Part shown: positions 22,382 to 35,850 of the stretch, in pieces
Numbering within the stretch: the first letter of the stretch is position 1
How the letters are laid out: the number at the start of each line of letters is the position of its first letter
NCBI GenBank assembly: GCA_037576195.1
Contig: CM075102.1
Location: forward strand, 33,042,745-33,106,744
Direction: 5' to 3'
From: Phytoseiulus persimilis
Lineage: Eukaryota; Arthropoda; Arachnida; Mesostigmata; Phytoseiidae
Length of the DNA stretch: 64,000 nt
Notes under the pieces: generated by a model
Databases searched by the model: none
What the model was told of the DNA's origin: nothing
The model's input: the letters and a program-made list of their open reading frames with translations, nothing else
Translations under genes and position numbers: made by a program

Positions 22382-25300
22382 ATGCCGAAACGAAGTGTCA
22401 AACCCAAGAAGATGGAGCCCGTCGATATTGCAGATGGTAGGTCGTTAGCCTGACCAGGTCTAAAGAAATTCGAGTCCCGTCAGTTCTCATGTCTGCCAAT
22501 GGACCGGCTTAGAGAGTCAAATCTTCCGGAAGGACTAGAAAACCTGCTCATGTTCCAGGTACTGTCGAAAGAAGCTTGACGACGCCCATAGCCGAATTTC
22601 TGGTAAACCGCCAACTTAACCTTGTGAGGGTGGCAATTTTCCAACCACTTGACGAACATTCCTGCGACAATCTGGGGTTCTCTTCGCATGGAAACGTCTC
22701 AGCAAACCAAGTCGACTCGGCTAACAACAACCCTCACATAATAGAAGTGTCGGCGAGCAAGGAGAGCTCTGAGAGCCGCCAGACCGCCAGTTCTAGCGGC
22801 GTGAATTCTAATTCGCGGTTCATCGAAGATGGAAGCGTTCCGGGGTGTTCTGGCCTCCAAAGGGTCGCCGAGCCCAGCATGCCATCGGAAGATGAGGATG
22901 AGTCAGAAGAGATCGAGGTGAGGATTAATCCAGATGTCGGAGACGACGAACTCCAAGATGGCGACGACGAAGAAGCGAATGCGGAAGAATCAGACGACAG
23001 GAGCACAGGAGACGAAAATGTCGAACACGAGAGAATCCTTCCCACCGTAAGCCTGGAAAATCTAGATTCATTGCCCCAAGGCAACAACGATGGAGAATCT
23101 ACTGAAGAAGCGAGCACCGACTCGGAGGAAAAGAACGGTGAATCCAGTGGAAACTCTCATGTCAAGAGCGCGGTACTCGGAAACGGACACAACAGCACCA
23201 ACGGGGAGGGAAGTCAAAAGATTCACGAGGGAGCAGTCCGAAGCAGGAAACCTCCATCATGCAAGAAGAGAAGTGTTGAATCCGCGGTCGCGCACCTCCA
23301 CGGCGAAGAAATTTCGACCGAGGAATCCGAGCTCGAGAATCGTGATGAAGAAATGCACACTGGAGGAACTATCGGGGATGAAGTTCAGGTTGGGGAAGCA
23401 GCTACTGAGCCGAGGCCGAATGAGGAAGCCAACGCCGAACAGCTCCTGGAGCGAGTTGCTAACGAGAAGGAAATCCGGGCTGTAGATGTCTCTGTTGACG
23501 GAGCCCAGCCTGTGGCAGTCGTTGTTGAGCCGGAGCGGGCTGGGGAACCCGTCCGCGAAGGAGTTCAGGCTGGAGAGTTCCACGGCAGCGACGGCAAAGA
23601 GGAAGAGCAAATCGAACAAGTCCGCGATGAAGGGTTTCATAACCGGGGATCCGGCCGCCGAAAGAACAATGGCGGAGGATTTGCGGCTGAAGAGGCTCTT
23701 GAAGGCGCAAATCAGAAGACGCGGAACCGCAACAGAGCTGAGGCAGAAAAACTCGGAAACGCATCCGAAGCTCGTGCAGGTCAAATCATTCGAGGAGAAA
23801 CTCCGTGCAGGAACGATAGAAGTCTGGTCACCGGACAGAAGCAGAGCCGAGATGAGATTGCTGGCGGGGGAGGCTTTCGCAACGGGAAGCTCTGTCAGAC
23901 GCCACGCGACCCACAAAATCCCGTCGTAGAGGCTAAAAATGATGATGATTATGGTGATGATGCTGATTATGACGATGATGATGGCCCCGGATCCGATGGT
24001 TTCCACACGGAAGACGAAAGTCGCACGACGGACGGTTCCCAAACAGCAGACGATTACCTCACATGCGATGATACGGCTTCGGACACGGAATCTCTGGGCA
24101 CTTTGGGAGAAGCGTACTTCGAATGTGAGGACGGAGCACTAGTAAATGATGAGTCCGACGGCCGAACGGGTCGCGAGGACGCAGCGAAAAATGTCAATTT
24201 GAGAGAAATCGACGACAACTACGACGGCGACTCTTCAGAAGCTTGCATAGAGGACGATGTTTCGAGGAAGGTAGATATTTCAGAAGAAGAGGCCAGCAGC
24301 GACAACTCAGGTCTTCTAGACGAGACCGTTGTTGAAATAACTATTTTCGAAGCGTGCTCGAACGCAATGTCGGTCATCGATGCGGAGAAAATCCCTGTGA
24401 CAGCTTTCAATGAGACAGGATCCTCTGAAAGTGAAATGGACCTCGTCGAGGCTGACAACCGTATTGGCGGGCCTCCTTTATCTGCGAGCGCAGCGCCAAA
24501 AGCCCTTGGAAATGATAGAAATCACTCAAATAATCTTGAAAAGGAGGGGAGGCAACCGGACGTTCCCGAGTCTGCCCCAAACGGCATTGTGACAACCAAA
24601 GAAGTTCCTGAGAGTACTGCAACGTCGACGGGAACCATCAAATACAGTACCGGGACTCCACATGAAGCTGAAGATGTATCGCCCTCACGGGCCACGGCAG
24701 ATGGCGATGATTCGGGTTCACAGATGGTAGCGAACGGCAGCGAACTTCTCGACGGTGCTGCCGCTTCTGTGAAGCCCATGGAAAACGTTGCCATCACGTC
24801 AGATGAATCCGCGAAGTACCTTCCTTCAGCTGGCACGGCACAAGGTGGTCCAGCGGGGAACCCCGCCTTCCCGAATCGAGCCGCAGTCCCTGCAAACGGC
24901 GGAGGAATCCAGACGGGGGAAGCAGCCCTTGGCAACGCCCTTGTGGGAGGACAACCACATGGAGGTCGGACCTCCGGCACGAAGCCGAAAAATGTCAAAG
25001 AAGCTATCGCCGATGGCCTGCCAGCGAGCAAGCTCAGCGCTCGAGATCCCCCGGAACAAGACACGGATGACGAAACACTTTCTGATGTGGAGTTATTCGC
25101 GCGATTTCTGTGCAAAAGCCGTGACCCGTCTGTCAAGCATGTCATGGGGAGCCTAGCGGTCGAACGGAATCGAAATCAAGTTCTATTGGAGAAAAAGAGT
25201 CGTCTGATACGGGCGATTGGGAGCGGCTCATCGAGGGATGCCCGCCTGTTTCTAAATCTCCTCAAAGAACACTTCCTCCGCATCAAGTATGTCGTCAGCT

Positions 25301-25539
25301 CTGAGGGCGACTCCTCACTGCCGATAAGCGCGGAAGTGTGTCGTTTGCTTTGGGACATTCCTCTCTGTGAAATCGCAAAGCTGGTGCAGTTCGTCGATGC
25401 TGCGGCCGCTCATTTCGCGTCTCCGATCGCGAGGGTGAAGTCGGTCGCGGAGATCATCGAAAGGATCGAATTCGATGTTTCTTCGAGCTCCCTGCGAGCC
25501 ATGTTCCAAAACAACTTGAAAAAAGTGACCTCCGTCTAG
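22382..25539 (+). CDS. Large acidic, mostly disordered protein, two coding exons, 1011 residues
   Basis: Exon 1 (22382-22436) gives a basic start, MPKRSVKPKKMEP, ending in donor G|GTAGGT. Exon 2 (22559-25539) follows acceptor ATGTTCCAG in matching phase, and its 2.98-kb frame has no ATG near its beginning, which supports splicing. Residues from about 40 to 840 are dominated by Glu, Asp, Ser, Gly and Asn, with a near-pure Asp stretch at about residues 478-493, and look unfolded. The last 155 residues or so (from about 855) are mixed and hydrophobic enough to fold as helices, for instance RLFLNLLKEHFLRIKYVV and VCRLLWDIPLCEIAKLVQFV. I recognise no domain. Acidic nuclear chaperones and chromatin or nucleolar scaffolds share this composition, but that is only an analogy. 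An alternative acceptor at 22590-22591 keeps the frame and drops 11 residues. Confidence 0.8.
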
Positions 25540-26214: not shown

Positions 26215-27601
26215 ATGGGGAAAGTTCAAAGAGGAAGGAAGAAAATCGTTGAGGGGGCGAAGAAAAAGCTAGTGAAGCCCAATCCACAACCCAATGAGAA
26301 CGGCGAGCAGAATCCTGAGACTGGTGTAGGCAGGGCCGCATGTGAAGGCCCATGTGAGCTGACTATCGTGAGGATCACGGGTGGGGGAAACGGTTCGGCC
26401 TTCGGGGTTCCAGGCGTGAGTTGTGTTTTCTTTTGTGAAATTTGCATGGGTCGCTGATCTGCTAGTTCCACACTCGGATTATCAAATTGCGCCGTAATAA
26501 TTTGAAATCAAGGTTGTTCCATCTTCTTTGTAGAAGGGGAGAGCTCCTCCTCGTTCTCCTGGCAAGGCGTTATTCCTCAGCGACGTCCCCGAGAGCTTAT
26601 TAGTGGAAAACTTACCGCTGTACAGCAGAAGAGAGATGCCGTTCATCCAATGCGACATATGTGGCGCTCATACGGTGAGAGCCAACGTCAGCGAATGTGG
26701 CCACAAGTTCTGCGACACTTGCGCTCTACCGCACGAGGTATTCCGAGGAATAGCCTGCCCCTTTTGCCTGAAACCGTTCATCCACAGCCGTCTCGCGCTT
26801 GGTGAGGAATTTTTGGTGGACTTGCCCGTTCAATGCAGATGCGGACTCCAAGGACTTCTTCCAAAGATCAAGGAACACGTGGCGCAAAAAGGGGGAAGAT
26901 GTCAAAATTCTAAAATGTCGCTCAGGGAGCTGCTGCAAGCCGGCATGAGTGCCATGAGAACTAGAAAGTGGGCTGATCGCTGCAGATATCTACGAAAGCC
27001 AAATTACCTCGGTCGCAAGGAGATCCAGCCCCCTGACGATTTCACTGCCTATTTCAACATAAGTCGGAGGAATGACGCGTTGCCTCATGTCTACCTCGAC
27101 ATGAAAGCCGACGAACTCTTCTTAGGTCGGCTTTATGTCGAACTTCACAAGAATGTGGTTCCGAAGACCGTCGCGAGGTTCATTGATCTGATAAAGGATC
27201 CGAGAGGTTACAAGGGAGCAGAAGTCGACTTTATAGTGACGGAGTTCCTCTTCCAAGTGCAGCATTTATCAGGCTACGGAAGTGCAGTCAAGATGCCCTT
27301 CCCGGACGAAAATTTTGAATTGAAACATGACAGGCCCGGAACTGTATCGATGGCCAATTTCGGTCCTGACACCAACCAGAGCGGATTCTGCGTCACCAAT
27401 AGGCCGATGCCCTGGCGTGATGGATGTAACGTTGTGATCGGCTACGTGATCTCTGGAATGCGAATCATCCAGAGAATCTGCGAGCTGGGACGTGAAGACG
27501 GGTCGCTCCTACGCCGAGTAAGAATAGCCGACTGCGGAATGATTGTGGAGTGGTTGCTCCCTGAAGTTTTCGATGGATATGATATCTTTGATTCATCTTG
27601 A
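26215..27601 (+). CDS. RING finger-cyclophilin fusion protein, 422 residues, likely inactive as an isomerase
   Basis: Exons 26215-26415 and 26534-27601 join in phase 0 across a 118-base intron (GGC|GTGAGT to TTTGTAG). The first 67 residues are basic. A C3HC4 RING follows with ligands C107, C110, C122, H124, C127, C130, C142 and C145. A second Cys-rich stretch (CRCG...C, about 167-189) resembles the zinc segments behind TRAF-type RINGs. Residues 250-412 are a cyclophilin fold: FLGRLYVELHKNVVPKTV, a PGTVSMAN block and a WRDG loop. RING domains recruit E2 enzymes for ubiquitin transfer, while cyclophilins bind proline peptides. The catalytic HRII motif of cyclophilin A reads DFIV here, so the essential Arg55 is lost, although the equivalents of Phe60, Gln63 and Trp121 remain. 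Binding without catalysis is inferred. PPIL2 pairs a U-box, not a RING, with a cyclophilin and is the nearest known layout. Confidence 0.9.
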
Positions 27602-27744: not shown

Positions 27745-27750
27745 AATAAA
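27745..27750 (+). terminator. AATAAA poly(A) signal of the RING-cyclophilin gene
   Basis: Canonical hexamer 144 bases beyond the stop codon, as expected for a compact 3' UTR. Confidence 0.75.
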
Positions 27751-33719: not shown

Positions 33720-34787
33720 TCATACGGGGTCTCCGAGAAGTTTCTCCTTGTCGCCTGTCCCCGTTTCTCTTTGCTTAGTATCTCTGATTTTATTCACGAC
33801 GGGGTTTTGGGAGTACAAATAGGTGGCGATCGATACAACGCTTATCGCCATGACGGTCGGCATATCGATTGGGATTGAAAAAATTAACCAACAAAGCACC
33901 GCAGTGAAGGAGAGGTCCAACGCTCCAGCGAACGTCTTAAGAATCGAGTTGAGATTCCGAAGGAACACCGACACGATAATCCCGCACAAAGCGCCATTCG
34001 CTATGATTAGCAATACAATAGTTTGTCCGTAGGTGTTTCGGAGAGCGTCGGCGCTCACCAATTCACCGGCTTGGCCGTTCCACGTGAGCACTACGAGGTT
34101 ACATATGATAGAGTCAAGGTACATGAATAAATTGTGGATCATGATGTGCAGGTCGGCCCCGGTGTCTTTCAGCAGGAACTCGTTGTAGACTCCTGCCAGA
34201 CAGGAGCACAGCATCTGGAACAGCAGGAACAGGATCTCGAAGGAGAACAGCGTTTCCAGAATCCCCACATCAGACGCACGAGTGGAAATGTCGGCCAGAC
34301 TAAATTGCTTGATGATACAGCCGAACGTCAGCAGACACAGAGAAAACCACTGCTGTCCCGAAAGACTTTTCTTGAACAGTAATTGGAACACTATGCCAGT
34401 TATGACCACACGGAACTGCATCAGCAAGTTATACGTCGTCGGGTCAAAGTGCTGTAAATTCCGGAAAGCCAGATTGTTGTAGAAGCAGTAGAGCAAAGCT
34501 GGCACGAAGTACAACAGCAGCACTTTGCGGTACTTTGAAACTTCACTGCGTAACGTATGGAAGTTATGGTCTTTCAAGTATAGCACGGATGACAGTATAA
34601 GCTTGAGGACCTCTGTCAACATGACAACACATGTAACATTGTAGGTGTATTTATGGTCAACTTGTGAAGCTTTGACAAGAATAGATTGGGCTATGAAGAA
34701 GACGATATAACCCACGAAGATTGCGGCCGAAAGCTTCGTCGGGAACAGGTCGCCGGAGAATTTGCCTCTCTGAATAGACGCTGTCAT
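33720..34787 (-). CDS. SLC35A-type nucleotide-sugar transporter, 355 residues, intronless
   Basis: One uninterrupted frame encodes about ten membrane helices, starting with FPTKLSAAIFVGYIVFFIAQ. Family hallmarks are present: an early LTEVLKLILS segment, LLMQFRVVITGIVFQLLFKK, the VYNEFLLK motif, and LNSILKTFAGALDLSFTAVL near the end. Transporters of this group sit in Golgi or ER membranes and exchange UDP- or CMP-sugars for the nucleoside monophosphate. The sequence looks closest to the SLC35A4/A5 and insect senju group, the last reported as a UDP-galactose transporter, but the substrate cannot be read from sequence. The length is normal and all helices look intact. Lack of introns contrasts with the neighbouring minus-strand genes that have many short introns. 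The start at 34787 precedes the first helix by a normal short cytosolic tail. Confidence 0.93.
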   Translation of the reverse strand: MTASIQRGKFSGDLFPTKLSAAIFVGYIVFFIAQSILVKASQVDHKYTYNVTCVVMLTEVLKLILSSVLYLKDHNFHTLRSEVSKYRKVLLLYFVPALLYCFYNNLAFRNLQHFDPTTYNLLMQFRVVITGIVFQLLFKKSLSGQQWFSLCLLTFGCIIKQFSLADISTRASDVGILETLFSFEILFLLFQMLCSCLAGVYNEFLLKDTGADLHIMIHNLFMYLDSIICNLVVLTWNGQAGELVSADALRNTYGQTIVLLIIANGALCGIIVSVFLRNLNSILKTFAGALDLSFTAVLCWLIFSIPIDMPTVMAISVVSIATYLYSQNPVVNKIRDTKQRETGTGDKEKLLGDPV

Positions 34788-35850
34788 ACTCGCTGTTTCT
34801 TGACGGCTCTTTGGTGACCAGTTGGCACGGGCCGTTCAACATGAAATGCGCTCACTGGAACACGCACACTCAGTGACAACTGTGCGCTGCATGGGGAGTC
34901 TAGTTAGAGCTCTTCGGAGAGGAGGAATTACGCCTGCTGCCGCTGTAGCTGTGGCAGAACATAGTTGTTGCTGAGGACAGAGGCTGAGAACATCGACGAT
35001 CTCGCTGCGATCCTAGAAGGGCTTCCGCCGCAACTGTAGCCACTCCAAGAGTGTACCGTGACGTGTGATCGAACGAAGAGTCCGGTCGAGCCTCTCGGAG
35101 CCGTTTTTCGCTAGGTCCACCTAGCTCGAGGCGCTGAGAACCTCCGTGATGAGACGGAGCATGAAGCACTGAGCTCATTCACCAAATTTTCACGCTGTTT
35201 CGGCTTCGCTAGCACATGAAGAAGAAGTGTTCGCAGTGCGTTTCCATGACAACCGTCAGATGCCCTCTCTCTTCTGAGCGAGAGTGATTTCAAACCATTG
35301 GCGGGTCACGGACGGAGACTCCGCCACCGTCGCTGCTGTCGTCATCGTGATCGACAACCGCCGCGCGGCATTCGCGGATGCGGTCTTTTTGGCGGAGCAG
35401 CAAAATGGTGATGTAGCAAGAATCTGCGGCAGCATGCATCACGGCATTGGGCTGTCCTTTCTATTCATGGTGGATTGCGTCACACCGTTTTTTCGTCGTT
35501 GACGACGGTCGGACCTTTGTTAACGATGTCCAGAAGTTTAAGAGCACTGGAGCATCCGGCCGCATCTCATTCCCTCAACATCGGCCCAGACGATAACTTG
35601 TCGCCATAATGCTGAACGGGATCGAATATCCACTGCTTTGTTAAAAAAGACTAACGGACGACCAGGCTGAATCTGTGCGCCTCCTTCAAAGCAAAGATAC
35701 TTCATAGTTCAAGAAGGAGCGTGTTTTTTTTCCTCATGGGAATGGAAACAAAAACACGTAGCACCTTGCCCCAATCAGAGTCATTGTAATAAGAAAAATC
35801 AAATGTCATTCATTCTGCCCCGGCGCCAGGCTTCCGAGGAGAGCACGCAG
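34788..35850. other. Promoter and 5' flank of the transporter gene; 3' flank of the next minus-strand gene
   Basis: GC-rich sequence with an open minus-strand block at 35256-35423 behind an acceptor-like GCCGCAG. I considered that block as a last exon of the gene to the right, but the nearer exon at 35851-35910 fits better. No other feature is recognisable. Confidence 0.4.

Follow-up and report, generated by a model that had tools for sequence, protein, structure and literature searches.

A mite gene joining a RING front, probably TRAF-like, to a degenerate cyclophilin A-type domain

Introduction

In a 64,000-nucleotide stretch of the Phytoseiulus persimilis genome (C2:33042745-33106744, hereafter the window), a single gene appears to encode a RING finger followed by a cyclophilin. 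RING-cyclophilin fusions arose several times, and the mammalian ones are antiretroviral factors. The locus raises the question of where the two halves of this gene, referred to below as the query, came from, and what a cyclophilin with an altered active site could contribute to a presumed ubiquitin ligase (E3). The reading that we favour, to which we assign a probability of roughly 60%, is that one gene encodes a presumed RING-type E3 with a TRAF-like front, in which an enzymatically dead fold derived from cyclophilin A (CypA) serves as a capture module. It builds on the observed open frame, domains, family relation and pocket changes; the layout is best read as TRIMCyp-like on a TRAF-like scaffold, RING-cyclophilin fusions as such being already known. 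The genome searched comprises 181 Mb in 127 contigs, and the literature is cited here from excerpts of the respective papers.

A single gene with all domains in one frame

The 422-residue protein is encoded by two exons that join in phase, the splice being predicted from sequence only:

26215..26415, + strand: predicted exon 1, starting with ATG, 67 codons (201 nucleotides), basic/polar leader, phase 0 join
26416..26533, + strand: predicted intron, 118 nucleotides, read as a GTGAGT donor and a pyrimidine-rich TTTGTAG acceptor
26534..27601, + strand: exon 2, 355 codons followed by TGA at 27599-27601, all domains in a single uninterrupted frame
26570..26620, + strand: stretch LFLSDVPESLLVENLPL, aligning with the 'MkxRGLPxEl' start of TRAF-like paralogues

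Exon 1 is supported because the stretch that aligns with the family start precedes the first in-frame ATG of exon 2, at 26636. Furthermore, the ATG of exon 1 has G at both -3 and +4. The codon scores come from training on eight further frames of this genome, five of which are TRAF-like paralogues; among 500 background windows the 95% point lies at 0.030 and the highest value is 0.287. In the proposed frame the scores are positive and the best of six for exon 1 (0.139), the RING-zinc part (0.097), the linker (0.087) and the cyclophilin (0.122). In the first 34 codons of exon 2 the proposed frame is not the best (-0.052), so that in-frame codon bias is seen in four of the five parts of the gene. 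Simple arithmetic with equal base use puts the probability that 355 codons run on without a stop at about 4e-8.

A preceding sequence-only reading had placed all domains in one 422-residue frame, and this stands, with exon 2 as a single frame and exon 1 as a predicted in-phase addition. Two separate genes are disfavoured since exon 2 is one frame spanning all the domains; the RING-cyclophilin junction falls inside this one exon, on a 52 Mb contig.

The RING finger, the second zinc motif and the linker

The front half of the protein consists of the following parts:

26651..26767, + strand: C3HC4 RING with ligands C107, C110, C122, H124, C127, C130, C142 and C145 (Pfam and family alignment)
26834..26902, + strand: second zinc motif, C-x-C-G...H...C (C168, C170, H182, C190; family alignment)
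26903..27079, + strand: linker, predicted structure of low confidence, no helix longer than 12 residues

The complete RING proposed earlier (C107 to C145) is confirmed by the presence of all eight zinc ligands and by the Pfam model zf-C3HC4 at 107-145, which scores barely above its cut-off of 21 (21.4 bits, E 2.4e-4); seven further RING models match the protein below their cut-offs. A profile search thus recovers both halves, zf-C3HC4 and Pro_isomerase, each above cut-off. The second Cys-rich, zinc-like stretch is found again in a gene family of this genome. No B-box model is found among the 10 Pfam families that match the protein at E up to 1. In the predicted structure of the 355-residue part, the linker has predicted local distance difference test values below 50 at residues 130-180 and helices of 12 residues at most. 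Matches in the PDB over the RING and zinc finger include TRAF6, which is not among the best ones.

A cyclophilin with a degenerate pocket

The C-terminal half is a cyclophilin of the CypA type:

27080..27547, + strand: CypA-type cyclophilin domain (residues about 250-405), intronless, degenerate active site
27230..27232, + strand: Phe codon at the position of CypA Arg55 (alignment)

Pro_isomerase matches at 254-402 with E 7.3e-24 (85.2 bits, cut-off 21.7), and the domain is 42% identical to the CypA of the same genome over 155 positions. Among the nine active-site residues listed in an excerpt of PMC2911226 (CypA numbering), four are identical (F60, Q63, A101, W121), one is conservatively changed (M61L) and four are lost (R55F, F113C, L122R, H126N). 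In addition, the gatekeepers are changed (A103F, Q111G), and about five residues are missing at CypA 69-73, positions 72 and 73 falling in the gap. The loss of the Arg55 equivalent is as the sequence-only reading had it, HRII becoming DFIV with Phe at this position; 12 of the 13 other cyclophilin rows of this genome have a residue there, which is Arg in 11 and Lys in one. The further claims that the hydrophobic pocket residues stay and that the domain is a proline-peptide reader are not supported by the comparison, given R55F, F113C, L122R and H126N together with A103F. Loss of catalysis, as predicted from these residues, is well supported, and with R55 and much of the pocket lost together, neither catalysis nor ordinary proline binding would be expected.

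The cyclophilin domain has no introns, and the mite's own CypA seems to have two. No direct repeats of at least 12, the mark of a target-site duplication, were found. We suggest that the domain may have entered the gene as a processed, intronless copy.

A TRAF-like family in the same genome

In the genome search, the front half of the query matched L033, L035 (CBL-like) and L038. When L038 was used as the query, it matched L042-L046, the RING-cyclophilin gene weakly (E 0.18) and L048 (E 0.26); the last, which has an internal stop, was left out. The six remaining places, L038 (the place of L041) and L042-L046, hold single-frame genes composed of a RING, a CxCG-type zinc motif, a coiled coil and a MATH-like end. 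They share a 'MkxRGLPxEl'-like start, a divergent RING and the zinc motif C-x-C-G-x-x-G-x-L...H...C; CxCG is exact in four of the six, L042 having Asn for Gly and L041 lacking the first Cys. The alignment of the query with all six has 12 invariant columns.

A profile built from the six members with the query left out aligns with the query over 110 columns (P 2e-8); for comparison, a CBL fragment whose first letters are inexact gives P 0.011 over 41 columns. The control comprised 44 loci, namely three others and 41 of the 45 RING places, the latter trimmed to about 300 bases on either side, which may have removed a second motif from some of them. Here the query scored 36.8 bits against 21.4 bits for the highest of 637 other frames, with L033 at 18.1 and CBL at 8.6 bits. 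With the first 130 residues included, the query reached 40.0 bits, and 300 shuffles that kept C and H gave a maximum of 29.6. These observations suggest that the front of the query, comprising the RING, the CxCG motif and the preceding stretch, is distantly related to this family. The cyclophilin occupies the position where the paralogues carry the coiled coil and the MATH-like domain; behind the stop of the query, downstream to 33000, no MATH remnant rises above noise.

The case also brings to light a small gene family of divergent RING/CxCG/MATH-like layout, in which no member matches a Pfam model above cut-off. All six members lack the Pro that separates the final pair of RING cysteines (CPxC). 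Family loci include L147 (G000 C3:18470000-18479999), L149, L150 and L151, three members lying within about 5 kb. The TRAF-like cluster on C3 is located about 20 kb from a cyclophilin with adjoining TPR-like sequence, presumably PPID, and this proximity is taken as a coincidence. The RING closest to that of the query (40% over 48 residues) is in L146 3743-4291 (G000 C82) and is perhaps a relic; the C82 RING was rejected as a RING-cyclophilin relative, with no zinc motif and no cyclophilin seen behind it. The second-ranking RING of the profile control, on C88, lies in a frame of 343 residues that lacks the family motif and that we take to be PEX2-like.

Origin of the cyclophilin and competing explanations

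The genome search for cyclophilins returned 24 exon matches that group into 14 genes including the query, numbers that, like those for RING copies, are lower bounds. The tree contains 15 rows, several of them partial, with exons pieced together from translated matches. The query groups with the CypA rows (support 82/63, not starred), and a clade of the query and the mite's own CypA alone is compatible with the data (p 0.529). Derivation from CypA is most likely. Two other very divergent cyclophilins of this genome, L015 and L010, have branches of 2.4 and 1.5, and L010 has Lys at Arg55. The RING-zinc part gave at least three weak RING matches elsewhere in the genome; no cyclophilin match lies within 10 kb of those listed, and no second RING-cyclophilin was seen among them. 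Searched once with the 355-residue part, viral_contigs gave 6 pattern matches and no relative.

A separate PPIL2-like gene is present at C2:24.76 Mb, seen in pieces and named here on motifs that we take to indicate PPIL2; Pfam confirms its cyclophilin (E 5.9e-18), and its front pieces match zf-NOSIP and Rtf2, all below cut-off. Derivation of the query from PPIL2, the U-box cyclophilin, would account for the shared order of parts, an E3-type domain followed by a cyclophilin, but is hardly credible: the query has eight zinc ligands, the U-box half of the PPIL2-like gene finds no significant match in it (best E 8.7), and the approximately unbiased test rejects a joint clade of the query and the PPIL2-like cyclophilins (p 0.005). 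The assertion that the gene is not PPIL2 and carries a RING with zinc ligands in place of a U-box is thereby upheld, and the tree of the cyclophilin part against PPIL2 and CypA agrees with it. A decaying gene or an assembly chimaera without function is very unlikely as well. The longest branch among the 15 rows, the heavy loss in the active site and the failure to find a second full-length copy in the genome would fit decay, but 355 codons are free of stops despite only 42% identity to the own CypA, all RING ligands are kept, codon bias follows the frame in most of the gene, and the junction lies within one exon of the 52 Mb contig.

Several observations weigh against the favoured reading of a TRAF-like E3 with a dead CypA fold. 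The Pfam model zf-TRAF matches neither the query nor the places of the paralogues, and held-out family members score 60-93 bits compared with 29-35 for the query, which makes it a distant member because they outscore it by far. Placement of the query in the other half of the tree is also compatible (p 0.168); its branch is the longest (2.68), and an earlier tree put it in a fork that was not resolved. Such a long branch suits an old or fast gene, and it is possible, though not what we would bet on, that the locus is orthologous to fly CG5071, both being an old TRIM-like RING-cyclophilin gene of arthropods, and not a separate fusion on a TRAF-like scaffold. PMC2533329 counts CG5071 among the TRIM genes and gives it a cyclophilin domain, and PMC3166285 has it as a fly RING protein without human orthologue, but no B-box model is found in the query and its second zinc motif aligns with the local TRAF-like genes. 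It is rather unlikely that the fusion retains a proline-peptide reader, whose cyclophilin would still bind Xaa-Pro loops and steer ubiquitin towards them. W121, F60, Q63 and A101 are kept, and some catalytically inactive human cyclophilin domains still bind substrate peptide, human PPIL2 and PPIL4 differing at other or single active-site positions (PMC2911226, in part). However, in the query, R55F, F113C, L122R, H126N and the gap at 69-73 strike the pocket, and a canonical reader is unlikely because these residues are lost and Phe in place of A103 is expected to crowd S2.

Under the favoured reading, the RING half would have E3 ligase activity, and the cyclophilin, lacking isomerase activity and probably cyclosporin binding as judged from its residues, would most likely serve simply as a fold for binding proteins, one that delivers a target to the ubiquitin-conjugating enzyme (E2) on the RING and so may guide ubiquitin transfer. 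If this is true, the fold itself, and not proline binding, can serve as the recognition arm of a ligase.

Neighbourhood of the gene

Other features of the window are as follows:

22513-25536, + strand: 1008-residue open frame, partly low-complexity acidic, on the strand of the query and 0.7 kb upstream of it, without a Pfam match at E up to 1
27745..27750, + strand: AATAAA, possible poly(A) signal (sequence)
33723-34835, - strand: nucleotide-sugar transporter (Pfam E 8.6e-37)

Comparison with known systems

The sequence-only reading regarded the RING version as a different layout, which holds with respect to PPIL2 but not in the sense of novelty, given the vertebrate TRIMCyps and fly CG5071 (PMC2533329). 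PPIL2, Cyp-60 and CYC4 share with the query the order of an E3-type domain and a cyclophilin, which is inactive in human PPIL2 (PMC2911226), but theirs is a U-box, and Tyr is found at 121 where the query keeps Trp. In the oomycete, fungal and apicomplexan surveys, as far as excerpted, the RING or U-box cyclophilins named are U-box (PPIL2-type) forms. We take IPR003613 to be the U-box entry. It is this entry that is cited where the front of PPIL2 is called a 'RING finger' (PMC2713222).

The TRAF family (TRAF5/TRAF6) has the same succession of a RING and a zinc motif, whereas the query has C-x-C spacing in the first zinc pair, no coiled coil seen and a cyclophilin in place of MATH. Among the matches listed in the literature search, no title or abstract opening names a TRAF-like RING-cyclophilin. 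Drosophila CG5071, compared here by description only, is the arthropod precedent for a RING and a cyclophilin in one protein; it is said in PMC2533329 to combine a tripartite motif and a cyclophilin, 'indicating evolutionary convergence', and is treated as a fly RING protein without human orthologue (PMC3166285), whereas the query has no B-box match. Zebrafish ftr52, with RanBD and CypA, also combines a RING E3 front with a CypA-type domain (PMC3137616), and the pseudogenized fish fusion mentioned in PMC6677749 may be the same gene.

The closest analogy is with TRIMCyp (TRIM5-CypA of owl monkey, macaques and Peromyscus), in which a CypA-type domain replaces the C-terminal recognition domain behind a RING E3 front. 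TRIMCyps originated repeatedly through CypA retrocopies in primates, tree shrew and rodents, the mammalian cyclophilin being an intronless retrocopy, and the activity of the Peromyscus protein is reversed by cyclosporine (PMC6677749, in part). Unlike TRIMCyp, the query combines a TRAF-like zinc motif with a degenerate pocket, no detected B-box and a modelled linker without a long helix. TRIM5 proteins gain avidity through the B-box and coiled coil (PMC4936896), and a TRIM5-like lattice is not expected here because neither was found. It is quite unlikely, but worth stating, that an arthropod gene independently repeated TRIMCyp on a TRAF-like scaffold: a CypA retrocopy would have taken the place of the coiled coil and MATH domain, and rapid evolution would then have led it from proline binding to the capture of a new ubiquitination target, possibly one from a parasite or virus.
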